Below, piece by piece: positions 4,668 through 20,583 of a stretch of DNA of 27,497 nucleotides; the first letter of the stretch is position 1, and the number at the start of each line of letters is the position of its first letter. Made by a program: the position numbers and the translations under genes. Below the pieces are notes generated by a model. The model saw only the letters and a list, made by a program, of their open reading frames with translations. It did not search any database and was not told where the DNA came from. Origin of the DNA: a virus; IMG/VR virus record IMGVR_UViG_3300033148_007023, positions 1-27,497 of that record; one strand, 5' to 3'.

Positions 4668-5474
4668 ATGCCCGAATTCTTTGATAGTTATTCGTTTATA
4701 AGCCGTGGTATGGCGTCTATGTTGATACAACGATGCCATTATTCTAAAGTGATGCCACGCATTACAAAGGTTTGTATTGGTGGATGGGTTAATAATAAGC
4801 TTATGGGGGTAATGACGCTTGGGTATGGTACAAGGCCGCTTCACACAATAAGAAACATGTTCCCCGGATTAACTTCAAAGGACTATCTTGAGTTGGGCAA
4901 GTTTTGCATAGATGATGTTATGCCACGAAATAGTGAAAGCCAGTTTCTTTCGCGAGCAGTAAAGATGATTAAGTCGGAATTTCCGTCGATATTGCTTCTC
5001 TATTCGTGGGCAGATGGTATTTTAGGTAAACCAGGATATGTATATCAAGCTGCCAATTGGTTTTATGGTGGATTTATCTGGACTGAGTGTTACTTGGATA
5101 AGAATGGCTGGCGTGTTCATCCTAGGACATTACAAGGTTTGACTTCTACTGGAACCGGTCTTGGCCCCCGCGATTTTGAGACCACTACCTCTGCTGGTTT
5201 CGTTCGATGGCGTGGGAAGCAGTTCCGTTACTGTCTTCCATTATGTGGTAAGCGTCGGTGGCGCGAGCTTCAGAACGAGAGTACGATAGAATGGAGGCGT
5301 GATAATTATCCTAAAGATGTAGATTGTGTGTGGCGTGAGCAAGTTGGGATTGGAGATTATGTTGAGAGGGGATCAATTCCGTGGACTGGAACATTTTATC
5401 CTCAAAAACAAACAACTCAGCTTTCATTATTTGATGAGCAGGCGAGCGTGTGCCCGGAGGTGGGGTCATCGTGA
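4668..5474 (+). CDS. Mom-like DNA base-modification enzyme (GNAT fold)
   Basis: 268 residues. The order of conserved blocks fits phage Mu Mom and its relatives: QRCHYSKV near the N-terminus, YLELGKFCIDD, RNSESQFLSRAVK, and LYSWADGILGKPGYVYQAAN followed by W-F-Y-G-G. Mu Mom adds a carbamoylmethyl group to adenine N6 in phage DNA, protecting it from host restriction. Substrate and product here are not determined. About 70 residues beyond the usual core (from roughly residue 190) hold a Trp-rich tail. The ribosome site is weak (AAAAG). The final 31 bases of the gene overlap the tRNA-like element at 5444-5514, so its C-terminus (about the last ten residues) may not be conserved. Confidence 0.7.
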   Translation: MPEFFDSYSFISRGMASMLIQRCHYSKVMPRITKVCIGGWVNNKLMGVMTLGYGTRPLHTIRNMFPGLTSKDYLELGKFCIDDVMPRNSESQFLSRAVKMIKSEFPSILLLYSWADGILGKPGYVYQAANWFYGGFIWTECYLDKNGWRVHPRTLQGLTSTGTGLGPRDFETTTSAGFVRWRGKQFRYCLPLCGKRRWRELQNESTIEWRRDNYPKDVDCVWREQVGIGDYVERGSIPWTGTFYPQKQTTQLSLFDEQASVCPEVGSS

Positions 5475-12484: not shown

Positions 12485-12513
12485 TTTACAAAAATTGTGA
12501 TGTCGGATATAAT
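12485..12513 (+). promoter_or_regulatory. strong sigma70-like promoter for the capsid gene
   Basis: TTTACA (12485-12490), exact 17-bp spacer, TATAAT (12508-12513): 11/12 match. It begins 8 bp after the ChaB-like stop, and the ATG of the capsid fusion gene is only about 12 nt beyond the expected transcript start. Confidence 0.7.
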
Positions 12514-12531: not shown

Positions 12532-15500
12532 ATGAAGCTATGCCCAAAAGCGAAGACGGAAGAGTGTTCTGCCAACGGTTTTTCATACCCTCCCGCCGTA
12601 GAGGCGCTCAATGACATCATAAACGCTATTGAGCAGTGTGGAGAGATTGAGTCGCTTGCCGAGGACATTGCATGTCCATATCTTGAATGGGTTTGTGAAC
12701 AGGGAGGGGATGACCGCGACAGCTTGCGCAAGGCGAGGGAAGAAAGAAGCAGGAAGTATGGCATAGAAGTTCGCGACGATGGCAACCTTACCAAGCCAAG
12801 CAAGTATAAGGACATACCGGACGAATCGTTTGGCGACCCCGTGAATTATGCTTATCCTATAGACAAAGACCATGTAAGGGCTGCTGTAAGCTATTTCCCG
12901 AAAAAAGGAAACTATGACAAGTATTCACAGACTAGCTCTAGGCGCGTCATTTGGAATAGGATAATTGCAGCCGCCAAGAAAAATGGTATAAAGCATGAGT
13001 ACAATCCGGATAGTCCAGTTGACAAGCTCCTGAACCCAACACTAAAGCGATGGGCCAAGAAAAACGCTGGTATGGGTGCAGAAAGCATAGAGGCAGCTTC
13101 GTCTGCAATAGCCGAAGCGACCAGCATAGAAGAATTGCTTGCCATTGAGGCGGATATATCTGTTTCAATGGAAGAGTCTGACGACGCTGAAGAATGGACC
13201 AGTGTCCTATCAGAAACTAAGGGTAAGATGAAGGCCATAGCAGAAGAGCGTGGTCTTAAAGAACTTACCGACTCGTATATAGACAAGCCGCAAGTCAAAG
13301 AGTCCAAGGACGGACGACTCCTTGTTACCGGAACCTTTGCACGGGTAAATGTGCCGACTGCCAATAAACGGGTGTATCCTCAGTCCGTATGGAATGCCAA
13401 TGAGGAGCACATAGCCAATATGCTTCTTATGGGCAAACTGGTAGGACAAGACAATCATCCGTGGGGCGGGACAGTCTTGGATAGAATAAACATAGTCTTC
13501 CAAGACATTTGGCAGGATGGAGACGAGATGAAGTATGAGGCCATAGTGCCCAAGACGGTATCCGGTATGAACTTGCAGGAACTCATAGATGTCGGAGTAG
13601 GCATTGAATTGAGTACTCGCGGGTTTGGCTCCGTAGAAGAGGGCGAGTGGAACAACGAGGATGGCTACCTTATCGTTCAGGATGACTATCTGCTTCACGC
13701 GATAGATACCCTGATGGATGGTGCTTCTCCGGGAACATCCATGAAGCCCAAAGAAGAAGCAACAGAACCGCCCCACACTACGGAGGGGCAAGAGACGAAC
13801 ACACCCAAGGAGGAACGGACTCAGATGCGAAATAGAATAGTCAAGATGCTAGAACAGGCCGTTCGTACTGCCGGTGCTCTGGGGCTTGCAGAAGTCTCGG
13901 AGTCTGTGCAGGCCAAGCTCGACGCTCTGAAGGCTATTGAAGTTGATGAGGGCGAAGAGTTTGATAAGGCTATTGAGGAGGCCCTGTCCGCACTCGACGA
14001 GGCCGCCGAGAAGTTTGAGAGTGCTGGTAGCGCGGGCGAAGAGAAGGAAAAGACCTCTACCAATGAGGGTAATGGCGACGGCAGCGGTGTTGCTGTGGAA
14101 GACGCCATTAAGCGCCTTGAGGCTCTGGAGAATGCGGCCAAGGAGCGCGAACAGCGCGAGCAGGCCATAGCTGAGCGCGACGCCAAGGTCGCCGAGGTTA
14201 TGGAGAGCGCCGAAGGTCTCTCCGAGTCTTATGCGAGCAAGCTGCGTGCTGCGCTGGAAAGTTGTTCTGTTGCCGAAGAGGTGCAGAAGACGTATGACCG
14301 GCTCTATCCGGTTATGAAGGAAGCCTCTGAGGCCGTAGAGGCCGGGCAGTTCGCGGTCCACATCCGCAAGGATGAGGAAACCCAGAGCATCACGGGTGAG
14401 GCCCAGCTTCGCCCGCAGACCACCGGTGAGGTGCTCAACGGTCTGGTTGAGGGCCTGAAGAAGCGCACTGGATGGGAAGACACTGGCGAGGCCAATGCCT
14501 CCAACAAGATATGGGTGTTCAAGCAGCTTATCAACAACTATGTTAAGGAACATCCGTATTATGTTGAGTGCATGACCCGAGAGGGGTTTAAGCGGCACAA
14601 GGCAATGATTGAGTCTACTCAGACCAGCGACGTTGCCGTTGGTGCGCCGTTTATCCTGCCCATATTCAGGGAGCTTTTCCCCAAGCTCATCGCCCTGGAA
14701 CTTTGTTCGGTGCAGCCGATGAGTGTCCCTGACGCCAAGGTCTTCTTCTACGATGCGAAGACCGACCCCGGCGGGCTGGCGCTTGATACCGAGGCCAACT
14801 TCGACAGTACCTATGCCGACCATACGGAGGGCTCGGCGTCTGCGAAGATAAAGCTGGTTATCAGTTCTGCCAGCGTTTCGGCGGATGCCAAGTCGGTAGA
14901 GGCGGAGTGGACCACCGAAATTGCGCAGGACCTGCAGGCATATCACAATATGAATGCTGAGTCCGAGCTTATGGCGAGTGCCGCCGACGAAATCGCCCGT
15001 GAAATTAACTACACCATCCTTGAAGACATGCGGGCCAATGCCAGCGGTAGCACGTCGCGCACGTTCAAGACTACGGCCCCGTCCGGCTACACTGGCCGAG
15101 AGTGGGACCAGCGTCTTGCCGACTTCATCAGTCGCATGAGCGGCGATATTGCCGAGAAGACCTATCGGCGACCGAACTGGCTGGTTATGGACCCGACGAC
15201 CGCTAGCCGTCTGTCGGCGCTGAACACGTTCGTATCGGCTGCGCCGGACGAGATGAACGCGTTCACTGTCGATGTTGCTTATGAGGGTGTTCTGAGTAAC
15301 CGATGGAAGGTTTACTCGGTTGGCTGGTTCACTAACAACACCATCATGTGCGGCTATAAGGGCGCGGACTGGAAGGAGACCTGCTACATCTACGCTCCCT
15401 ACATCCCCGCTTATATATCGCCGCAGTCGTATAACACCTCGACGCTGGTTGCGTCGCGGGCCGTCATGACGAGGTTCGCCAAGTACCTGGTAAATAGCGA

Positions 15501-15552
15501 TCTTCTCGGAAGACTCACTATTTCCTCGGGCACGGGTGAGGACCTCACGTAG
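12532..15552 (+). CDS. prohead protease-scaffold-major capsid fusion protein
   Basis: 1006 residues in one frame. Residues 1-80 are Cys-containing and unassigned. Residues 95-165 (NYAYPIDKDHVRAAVSYF, YSQTSSRRVIWNRIIAAAKK) form a small helical domain common in phage head proteins. Residues about 262-370 are a T4 gp21-like serine protease: LLVTGTFARVNVPTANKRVY, catalytic His309 in GQDNHPWGG and Ser361 in IELSTRGFGS. Residues 430-620 are Glu/Ala/Lys-rich coiled coil, the expected scaffold. Residues about 640-1006 are a T4 gp23-type HK97-fold capsid protein (IFRELFPKLIALELCSVQPM, CGYKGADWKETCYIYAPYIP, TRFAKYL). LVE-G at 638-641 fits the T4 protease cleavage rule (L/I)xE|(G/A) and would free the capsid domain. 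From codon 432 onward third positions become markedly richer in G/C, as in highly expressed genes. Confidence 0.85.
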   Translation: MKLCPKAKTEECSANGFSYPPAVEALNDIINAIEQCGEIESLAEDIACPYLEWVCEQGGDDRDSLRKAREERSRKYGIEVRDDGNLTKPSKYKDIPDESFGDPVNYAYPIDKDHVRAAVSYFPKKGNYDKYSQTSSRRVIWNRIIAAAKKNGIKHEYNPDSPVDKLLNPTLKRWAKKNAGMGAESIEAASSAIAEATSIEELLAIEADISVSMEESDDAEEWTSVLSETKGKMKAIAEERGLKELTDSYIDKPQVKESKDGRLLVTGTFARVNVPTANKRVYPQSVWNANEEHIANMLLMGKLVGQDNHPWGGTVLDRINIVFQDIWQDGDEMKYEAIVPKTVSGMNLQELIDVGVGIELSTRGFGSVEEGEWNNEDGYLIVQDDYLLHAIDTLMDGASPGTSMKPKEEATEPPHTTEGQETNTPKEERTQMRNRIVKMLEQAVRTAGALGLAEVSESVQAKLDALKAIEVDEGEEFDKAIEEALSALDEAAEKFESAGSAGEEKEKTSTNEGNGDGSGVAVEDAIKRLEALENAAKEREQREQAIAERDAKVAEVMESAEGLSESYASKLRAALESCSVAEEVQKTYDRLYPVMKEASEAVEAGQFAVHIRKDEETQSITGEAQLRPQTTGEVLNGLVEGLKKRTGWEDTGEANASNKIWVFKQLINNYVKEHPYYVECMTREGFKRHKAMIESTQTSDVAVGAPFILPIFRELFPKLIALELCSVQPMSVPDAKVFFYDAKTDPGGLALDTEANFDSTYADHTEGSASAKIKLVISSASVSADAKSVEAEWTTEIAQDLQAYHNMNAESELMASAADEIAREINYTILEDMRANASGSTSRTFKTTAPSGYTGREWDQRLADFISRMSGDIAEKTYRRPNWLVMDPTTASRLSALNTFVSAAPDEMNAFTVDVAYEGVLSNRWKVYSVGWFTNNTIMCGYKGADWKETCYIYAPYIPAYISPQSYNTSTLVASRAVMTRFAKYLVNSDLLGRLTISSGTGEDLT
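13807..13827 (+). promoter_or_regulatory. internal ribosome site and in-frame start for scaffold-capsid protein
   Basis: AAGGAGG (13807-13813), 11-nt spacer, ATG (13825-13827) inside the fusion gene, in frame at codon 432. It lies exactly at the junction between protease and scaffold, and where codon usage changes. It would give a 575-residue scaffold-capsid protein in excess of the protease-containing form, like the nested Nu3 start in lambda gene C. Confidence 0.65.
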
Positions 15553-15591: not shown

Positions 15592-15642
15592 GTCTAGTCT
15601 GGGTTGGGGGAGATTCTCGGTCGCCTCCAACTCGGACTAGAC
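15592..15642 (+). terminator. hairpin after the capsid gene, no U-tract
   Basis: GTCTAGTC (15592-15599) pairs with GACTAGAC (15635-15642). An inner stem TTGGGGG/CCTCCAA forms beyond a small internal loop. No T-run follows; AAAGGA, the ribosome site of the next small gene, comes immediately after. It may stabilise or attenuate the capsid transcript. Confidence 0.5.
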
Positions 15643-15778: not shown

Positions 15779-15852
15779 TGCGGGGTAGTGAAGTGGCCTC
15801 ACGGGACCCTCATACGGTTCAGAGCCGGGTTCGATTCCCGGCCCCGCCACCA
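15779..15852 (+). tRNA. tRNA with anticodon CAT (Met or Ile2), encoded CCA
   Basis: 74 nt. Acceptor TGCGGGG/CCCCGCC has 6 pairs and a T1-C72 mismatch. D-arm GTGA-AGTGGCC-TCAC; anticodon arm GGACC-CTCATAC-GGTTC with U33 and CAT; variable AGAG; T-arm CCGGG-TTCGATT-CCCGG; then ACCA. An unpaired 1-72 is an initiator hallmark, but the three G-C pairs of the initiator anticodon stem are absent and 11-24 is the elongator type (T-A). It may be an elongator Met or a lysidine-modified Ile tRNA. No intron. Confidence 0.9.
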
Positions 15853-16380: not shown

Positions 16381-17415
16381 ATGGGGAAGTTGAGGTTTAG
16401 ATTTCAAGCTCCGTTTACTATGAAGACCGGGTACGGCAGGCTGGCCTGCTGGATTGCCCGGTCGTTTCTACACCGACGAGACACCGACGTAGAGATATTT
16501 GCACATGGCGACAAGATACAGGACGATGTTCCACCGGAGGTAATAGAGGCGGCGAGAAAGCCTGCTAACTACCGTGGACTCGGTATCATATTCTCATACC
16601 CTAACCATTTGCATTACCTTCCAACCAATATAAAGGTAGTCTATACAGTTTGGGAGACCGACAGGCTACCCAATGAGTACATTCGTGCACTTGGTGAGGC
16701 GGACTTGATTCTGACCCAAAGTGAGTTTTGCAGGTCGCTGTTTTCTTCTAGTGTTGATGTGCGCGTAGAAAACGTTGGGGCCGGTGTTGACACAGATTTC
16801 TTTACCTATGGTGACACCAGAGATGGTTCTGTATTGAGGATAGGCACGTGTGGTGTAATGTCGCCGAGAAAGGGTATAGATGTTTTAGCTAAGGCGATAG
16901 CCCATTTCAAGGGCAGAAACGATATTGAGTTTCATATAAAGACCAGAGACACTAGGTGGATGCCCGATATAAATCAGAGCAACGTCTTCATATACGATAT
17001 AGACTGGACTAATGAACAGATGAGGGACTTTTACAGGTCGATAGACTTCTTCATTTCTCCGTCTCGGGGCGAAGGTTTCGGGTTGTGTCCGATAGAGGCT
17101 GCATGTTGTGGAACTCCGGGTGCTGTGACAAACTGGTCTGGGCCGAGGGATTACATAGGAGAATATATACAGCCGATAGAGTGGACGTGTCTCAACAGGC
17201 CGCATAGCGGCGCATTTCGTTTTGAACATGTTGGCAAATGGGCCGAACCATCGCTTCAGCACCTTGTTCATGTAATCGAGACTATGTATAATAATGGTGG
17301 GCCCACTGAGGAATACCGACGTAGAGTATCGAAGTGGGCGCGCGGGAATTATGCTATAGACCTCGTGACTGACAGAATACACGCTAGTCTGAGGCGGATA
17401 TATCGTGAACGATGA
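16381..17415 (+). CDS. glycosyltransferase family 4 (GT-B fold)
   Basis: 344 residues. The N-terminal acceptor half (FRFQAPFTMKTGYGRLACWI) is followed by a hinge and the nucleotide-sugar half with RIGTCGVMSPRKGIDVLAKA and SRGEGFGLCPIEAACCGTP. The last is the GT4 E-x7-E signature that binds the donor. It transfers a sugar from a nucleotide-sugar to an acceptor unknown here. Placement between capsid and head-tail connector genes suggests a virion protein as acceptor (inference). The ATG follows a sequesterable GGAGG and a 157-nt structured leader. The 3' end overlaps the adaptor gene by 11 bp. Confidence 0.88.
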   Translation: MGKLRFRFQAPFTMKTGYGRLACWIARSFLHRRDTDVEIFAHGDKIQDDVPPEVIEAARKPANYRGLGIIFSYPNHLHYLPTNIKVVYTVWETDRLPNEYIRALGEADLILTQSEFCRSLFSSSVDVRVENVGAGVDTDFFTYGDTRDGSVLRIGTCGVMSPRKGIDVLAKAIAHFKGRNDIEFHIKTRDTRWMPDINQSNVFIYDIDWTNEQMRDFYRSIDFFISPSRGEGFGLCPIEAACCGTPGAVTNWSGPRDYIGEYIQPIEWTCLNRPHSGAFRFEHVGKWAEPSLQHLVHVIETMYNNGGPTEEYRRRVSKWARGNYAIDLVTDRIHASLRRIYRER

Positions 17416-19491: not shown

Positions 19492-20583
19492 ATGATACGC
19501 TTCAAGACCACAGACACTCGCTTCTACGAAGACCAGCGGTTTGGCTTTGATGCTTCCAGGTATATCATCTGGAAGCATGAATGGTATATAGCCCACGACG
19601 ACTTTGAAAGGTCTCTATGTGCACTTGGAGACAATGAATTTAGGGTAGAACCATATACCCTGAACCAGTGGACCGCAAGGCAGAACGAAGATACCACCGG
19701 CAAGTCGCTTATGCTTATGTGTTGGGGGGGTATAGGCGACCTTATCAGCATGACCCCGATTTTCCGAGCACTCAGAAGAGATTATGGTCTGAAGCAACTT
19801 GTGCTTGCTGCACCGGGAACATTAAAGGCATGGTTCAGTCCATATATAGACCATGTGGTTTCATATCCGACAATGCAGACAAGGGTGCAAGCCTGCGACT
19901 ATGTGCATATGGTAGAAGATATTCTAGGCGAGATGATGCACCGCAACCTTACAGACATATTTGTTGACAACCTTGATATACATGTTCCTATTGGGGAGAG
20001 GTATCCATTCCTCAATCTTGACACGGACACCGTGAAGTATGTCAGGGAACTTCTTCCACCAAGGCGGGGCAAGTATGTAGCCATCCACTTTAAGGGTTCG
20101 GTTCCCGAAAGGTGCATACCGCTTGGGAAAACACTCGCCATAGCCAATAGGATAGCGGACGAAGGGCATACTGCAATCCTTCTCGGCAAATGGCCGGACT
20201 TGGCATCATTTGAGACTGACGATATTGGCGACAGGGTTTCGGCTAGGAACATCAAGCCCGGCGTATACAACATGTGCGGGCTGCTTGAAAATCAGGACGA
20301 GATAGCCGCCTTGATGTCGCTGATGGACTTCTTCATCGGGCCCGACTCCGGCCTTTTGCATATAGCCGGGGCGTTAGGAATACAGGGGCTTGGTATCTTC
20401 ACTGGATACGATAGTTCTATAAGAATAGGGTATTACCCTTCCATTACCGGAGTAGATGTTGACCCAAAGTATCACACCAGCAATAGGGATACATTCTTCC
20501 CGGAGGAAAAACAGCGACAGCTATATGAAGAGGCAATTGATAGCATAGATTGGGATGGTGTTGTCGGGGCGGCGATAGAATGA
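19492..20583 (+). CDS. glycosyltransferase family 9 (heptosyltransferase-like)
   Basis: 363 residues. GGIGDLISMTPIFRALRRDY is the N-terminal signature of GT9 enzymes. The C-terminal MDFFIGPDSGLLHIAGALG is their nucleotide-sugar site, and YVAIHFKGSVPERCIP matches the strand that starts the second domain. In bacteria the family adds ADP-heptose to lipopolysaccharide; the donor here is unknown. It sits between neck genes and the tail tube gene and overlaps the next glycosyltransferase by 4 bp (ATGA), so both form one inserted pair in the structural operon. Confidence 0.82.
   Translation: MIRFKTTDTRFYEDQRFGFDASRYIIWKHEWYIAHDDFERSLCALGDNEFRVEPYTLNQWTARQNEDTTGKSLMLMCWGGIGDLISMTPIFRALRRDYGLKQLVLAAPGTLKAWFSPYIDHVVSYPTMQTRVQACDYVHMVEDILGEMMHRNLTDIFVDNLDIHVPIGERYPFLNLDTDTVKYVRELLPPRRGKYVAIHFKGSVPERCIPLGKTLAIANRIADEGHTAILLGKWPDLASFETDDIGDRVSARNIKPGVYNMCGLLENQDEIAALMSLMDFFIGPDSGLLHIAGALGIQGLGIFTGYDSSIRIGYYPSITGVDVDPKYHTSNRDTFFPEEKQRQLYEEAIDSIDWDGVVGAAIE

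Follow-up and report, generated by a model that had tools for sequence, protein, structure and literature searches.

A single reading frame for an S77 protease, a scaffold-like region and a gp23-type capsid protein in a phage contig

How would a phage with head proteins of the T4 type obtain its protease, scaffold and capsid protein from one gene? The question is raised by the phage contig IMGVR_UViG_3300033148_007023, which was analysed over 27,497 nucleotides (the window). An initial annotation, made from the sequence alone, proposed that a single frame joins the three functions and that a nested start divides its output in two. Its interpretation (the fusion, the domain identities and the nested start) is supported by the analysis described here, with corrections to the significance of the arrangement and to the placement of a shift in codon usage.

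Domains of the fused gene

The frame runs uninterrupted over 1006 codons on the plus strand and encodes, from N- to C-terminus, a DUF6582 domain, an S77 protease, a scaffold-like region of predicted helices and a capsid protein of the gp23 type (Table 1); PHROG profiles label the product both head maturation protease and major head protein. Protease, scaffold and capsid parts, the scaffold recognized by its position and helical prediction, all lie in this one open frame, as had been claimed, and the fusion gene in the window is genuine. Profile search and structure prediction by part, which the annotation had suggested, identified S77 and gp23 and predicted residues 432-640 to be helical. The DUF6582 domain at the N-terminus was absent from the annotation. 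It also occurs in open reading frames with other phage head proteases (L010-L017), before or after the protease part.

The protease belongs to peptidase family S77 by profile and by its His/Ser/Asp triad. H309 (13456), S361 (13612) and D392 (13705) align with H85, S140 and D168 of T4 gp21, and the triad is invariant across 41 aligned proteases. The best match of the predicted fold is T4 gp21 itself (5jbl; Foldseek E 6e-8, TMt 0.69), followed by herpesvirus proteases. The gp21-like protease with His309 and Ser361 that the annotation had named is thus borne out by profile, alignment and fold.

The C-terminal part is equally well placed. The Gp23 profile (PF07068) matches as far as residue 992 (Pfam E 2.8e-48), and the HK97 fold of this region is nearest to gp23 (T4 chain 7vrt_bj; VIA-align Z 21.6, rmsd 2.8, 256 aligned), in agreement with the capsid assignment first made. 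Residues 432-640 are predicted as long helices, mostly at pLDDT 80-94, and this region varies in length and sequence among relatives. From position, helical prediction, composition and variability we infer that it acts as a scaffold; VIA-align, a weak test for this part, returned no rows. T4 gp23 loses 65 residues (PMC9958956), which in the T4 sequence end in LTE. Motifs of this type ([LI]xE) occur between the domains of the window protein and flank its protease domain. Judging from the motif, the protease would probably cut at LVE640|G641 and so free a mature capsid protein of 366 residues.

Table 1. Features of the fused head gene and its upstream region, with positions in the window.
Feature	Position	Strand	Basis
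Promoter-like site TTTACA-17-TATAAT (11/12)	12485..12513	+	Consensus match only; 18 nt before gene
Tripartite head gene, full-length product 1006 aa	12532..15552	+	ORF and profile matches; fused likewise in L001 and L002
DUF6582, residues 79-154	12766..12993	+	Pfam E 1e-12
Peptidase_S77, T4 gp21-like, residues 259-408	13306..13755	+	Pfam E 2.9e-12, 46.9 bits (cut-off 27)
Shine-Dalgarno AAGGAGG of nested start	13807..13813	+	11 nt before ATG
Nested in-frame ATG, codon 432, putative scaffold-capsid form of 575 aa	13825..13827	+	SD strength; counterpart at L001 5893 (codon 440)
Scaffold-like helical region, residues 432-640	13825..14451	+	Predicted structure, position, composition
LVE|G candidate cleavage site after residue 640, T4-type [LI]xE motif	14443..14451	+	Kept in L001 (residue 586)
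gp23-like major capsid protein domain, residues 641-1006	14452..15549	+	Profiles and structure comparison

Relatives and known counterparts

The window is a metagenomic contig, in which separate genes could have been joined during assembly. Two other IMG/VR contigs, L001 (953 aa) and L002 (933 aa), carry the same single-frame fusion, the occurrence in related contigs that had been proposed as a check. Their proteins are nearly identical to each other and 54-55% identical to that of the window and, coming from neighbouring sample numbers, are counted as one independent related lineage. Since the same junction is shared by contigs of diverged sequence, the fusion is not an assembly error, and we give an artefact next to no credence. 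Separate genes, or a stop near 13800, which the annotation had named as grounds for rejecting its reading, were sought and not found in the closest relatives. No second protease gene or gp23-type capsid gene was found in the window, L001 or L002 records, all of which are fragments. Within the capsid domain, 20 residues of L001 are missing from the otherwise identical L002 protein, either as a variant or through an error of assembly.

The fusion is infrequent among the loci sampled, which are the best 80 per scan by score and not a census. Both protease and capsid profiles were found in 114 of them, fused in 6 and in separate genes in 108 (T4 included); all 6 are stretches of the L001 and L002 contigs, so that by contig 2 fused cases stand against at most 108 separate ones. 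In the phage collection, 1431 records match the window protein, in none of which does a single region span 80% of the query, and the same holds for P0002. A pattern scan of genome contigs (88 matches) yielded no relative and the plasmid collection no match.

Partial fusions occur as well. In L112 (1390-2988) and L119 (4863-6812) an S77 protease is fused to a scaffold-like region, and a separate gp23-type capsid gene follows; both arrangements may be intermediates. L119 is joined to the window and L001 in the protease tree (support 98/90) and in the capsid tree (82/90), with long branches in both, and is a plausible intermediate toward the tripartite gene. The protease matches in a 646-aa protease frame of L023 (1192-3129) lie towards its two ends, at 52-132 and 502-612, which hints at an insert of the intein type.

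Genes of this composition are known with other proteases. According to PMC8508860, protease, scaffold and capsid are all encoded by gene 5 of phage MD8, and the title of Effantin 2010, as quoted in PMC8538268, names a "tripartite capsid gene" of Gifsy-2. The NCBIfam families NF045540 and NF045541 consist of prohead protease/major capsid protein fusion proteins (Pseudomonas phage MD8, Rhodobacter phage RcBaka). These families, MD8 and, as far as that title tells, Gifsy-2 have protease, scaffold and capsid in one gene in the same order as the window. However, the NF045540/NF045541 members tested combine ClpP-like or S78 proteases with a Phage_capsid_4 capsid, whereas the window combines S77 with a gp23-type capsid. 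Searches of P0001 and P0002 against the two families gave no match up to E 10, and NF045541 had none in the window. The three-in-one arrangement, which the annotation had set apart from T4 and lambda, is therefore present here, but was already known with ClpP-type and S78-type proteases (Gifsy-2, MD8, NF045540/NF045541).

The closest counterpart by content is the T4 set of genes 21-22-23, which shares with the window the S77 protease with its homologous triad, the scaffold, the gp23-type capsid protein and their order. T4 has three genes, whereas the window has one, in which the scaffold is joined to the capsid domain and DUF6582 stands in front. A described fusion of S77 protease, scaffold and gp23-type capsid was found neither in the phage collection nor in the literature searched, and the gene is apparently the first tripartite one in the S77/gp23 (T4-type) lineage.

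A nested start at the protease-scaffold border

The annotation had further pointed to an AAGGAGG and an in-frame ATG at codon 432, on the border between protease and scaffold, and this holds. The predicted anti-SD pairing of the nested ATG is -11.3 kcal/mol, against -3.8 kcal/mol at the gene start at 12532. It is the strongest among the 628 plus-strand ATGs of the window and the sole one of 148 in-frame internal ATGs there at or below -9 kcal/mol. The site recurs in L001, where the ATG at codon 440 lies at the matching domain border in a poorly conserved linker, with an SD of -11.6 kcal/mol (next-best in-frame SD -7.2) that ranks first of 60 in its 17-kb locus. Across 813 ORFs, 10 of 7254 in-frame internal ATGs reach -11 kcal/mol, those of the window and the relative among them. 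Seven of the 11 strongest sites fall within protease-scaffold genes (window, L005, L012, L013, L015, MD8, lambda C), a clustering that is suggestive only, because the loci were picked as head-gene relatives and L012 and L013 are near copies.

Lambda gene C served as positive control; just one further strong in-frame start shows up in it, at codon 309, close to the scaffold-coding part. The lambda record annotates nu3 from codon 239; the true Nu3 start presumably lies further in. Like the window, lambda C/Nu3, L012, L013, L015 and phrog_976 have a strong nested SD and ATG near the border of a protease-scaffold gene, but their capsid gene is separate and their proteases are of other families. 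The sites in the phrog_976 frames of L012/L013 (codon 375) and L015 (codon 394) are very strong. Among the tripartite genes, a strong SD falls within the ClpP motif of MD8 and mEp213, and RcBaka has a weak one, while the SD of the window gene stands at the domain border. In L180 (codon 185) and L182 (codon 153), both ClpP-type fusion genes, a strong SD precedes the Met of a common ETW-MNG motif, and either marks a nested start or is a chance product of this motif.

A strong SD can also arise from the protein that it overlaps. The gene might make the full-length polyprotein only, with a protease at every capsid subunit, the domains parted by self-cleavage and the nested SD a by-product of a Lys-Glu-Glu linker. 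The [LI]xE motifs between the domains would suit such cleavage, and 53-64% of synonymous shuffles of residues K-E-E/D contain a strong SD (one as strong at the nested site in 53%). Codon choice at the nested SD is thus not unusual, and the argument for a start rests on its recurrence at the matching border: in both genomes the SD of the nested ATG stands far apart from those of other internal ATGs, although the linker has diverged. The weak gene start, the different codon usage of the two parts and the T4 stoichiometry of about 55 copies of protease to 580 of scaffold and 930 of the shell protein (PMC9958956) also speak against a polyprotein as the sole product, which we consider quite unlikely. 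RNA structure around the nested start was no stronger than in shuffled sequences.

Codon usage was said to become G/C-rich at third positions from codon 432. The shift itself stands, since GC3 rises from 0.515 before this codon to 0.689 after it and none of 2000 synonymous shuffles reaches the observed difference; no other part of the window has a GC3 as high as the scaffold-capsid part, and other genes lie at 0.38-0.53. Its placement does not stand, as the maximum-likelihood break is at codon 482, where the log-likelihood gain is 20.7; codon 432 gives 15.65. The rise was looked for in L001 and is absent there. In the window's genome it would agree with stronger expression of the C-terminal part, but it does not mark the start.

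A proposed two-product model and the surroundings of the gene

We propose, with a probability of roughly 0.8, that one late gene yields two nested products, a rare full-length protein and an abundant scaffold-capsid protein, which co-assemble and are processed by self-cleavage. Initiation at 12532, with its weak SD and short predicted leader, would give the rare DUF6582-protease-scaffold-capsid protein. Translation from 13825, behind the window's strongest SD, would supply the abundant scaffold-capsid protein from which the procapsid is built. The scaffold would be a removable N-terminal arm of the capsid protein, as in the delta domain of HK97 gp5 (PMC8508860); in HK97 the protease has its own gene, whereas here it is part of the capsid gene. 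The rare form would co-assemble through its own capsid part, so that the ratio of initiation at the two sites would determine the dose of protease. Once the shell had closed, the S77 protease would digest the scaffold and cleave ahead of the mature capsid domain, with LVE640|G641 as the probable site.

Alternatively, the nested site makes the scaffold-capsid protein, but an early cut frees the protease from the scaffold-capsid part of the full-length form, the fusion having neither a recruiting role nor a function of its own. This would agree with the [LI]xE sites on either side of the protease domain and with the fusions that arose with other protease families. The retention of the fusion in another lineage at about 55% identity argues against a neutral accident, although two lineages are a thin test, and we hold an early split to be unlikely. 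With the co-assembly of both products as the preferred reading, it seems somewhat probable to us that this T4-type branch delivers its protease covalently on a minority of shell subunits, with a copy number fixed by the two-start ratio, unlike the separately recruited core protein of T4. The tripartite capsid gene, already seen with ClpP-type and S78-type proteases, would in that case have originated a third time, by way of a protease-scaffold fusion such as that of L119. The same genetic solution would then be seen with a third protease family, in a lineage whose protease resembles that of herpesviruses in fold. A fused gene with a nested start would also offer a handle on the protease dose per procapsid: the start ratio lends itself to measurement and manipulation more readily than the three genes of T4 do.

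The gene stands after genes for the terminase large subunit (8396) and the portal (9946) and two unknown ORFs, and is followed by a tRNA-Met, a glycosyltransferase gene (16381), an adaptor-like gene (17405) and tail genes with a likely tape measure gene (22532). Within 20 kb there are three sites with an 11/12 match, including the promoter-like one upstream of the gene, and a transcript from this one would have a predicted leader of about 12 nt; in the relative, a promoter-like TTGACA-17-TACTAT (consensus match only) lies 55 nt before the gene. Downstream by 40 nt, a hairpin at 15592-15642 has 19 outer and 4 inner base pairs (region -40.8 kcal/mol, z -4.3) and no T run after it, and is either a processing site or an unusual terminator. 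The tRNA-Met (CAT), at 15779-15852, separates the capsid gene from the gene that follows. The window also encodes a Mom-like DNA modification protein (4668-5474) and two glycosyltransferases (16381-17415 and 19492-20583), the latter two among the head and tail genes.
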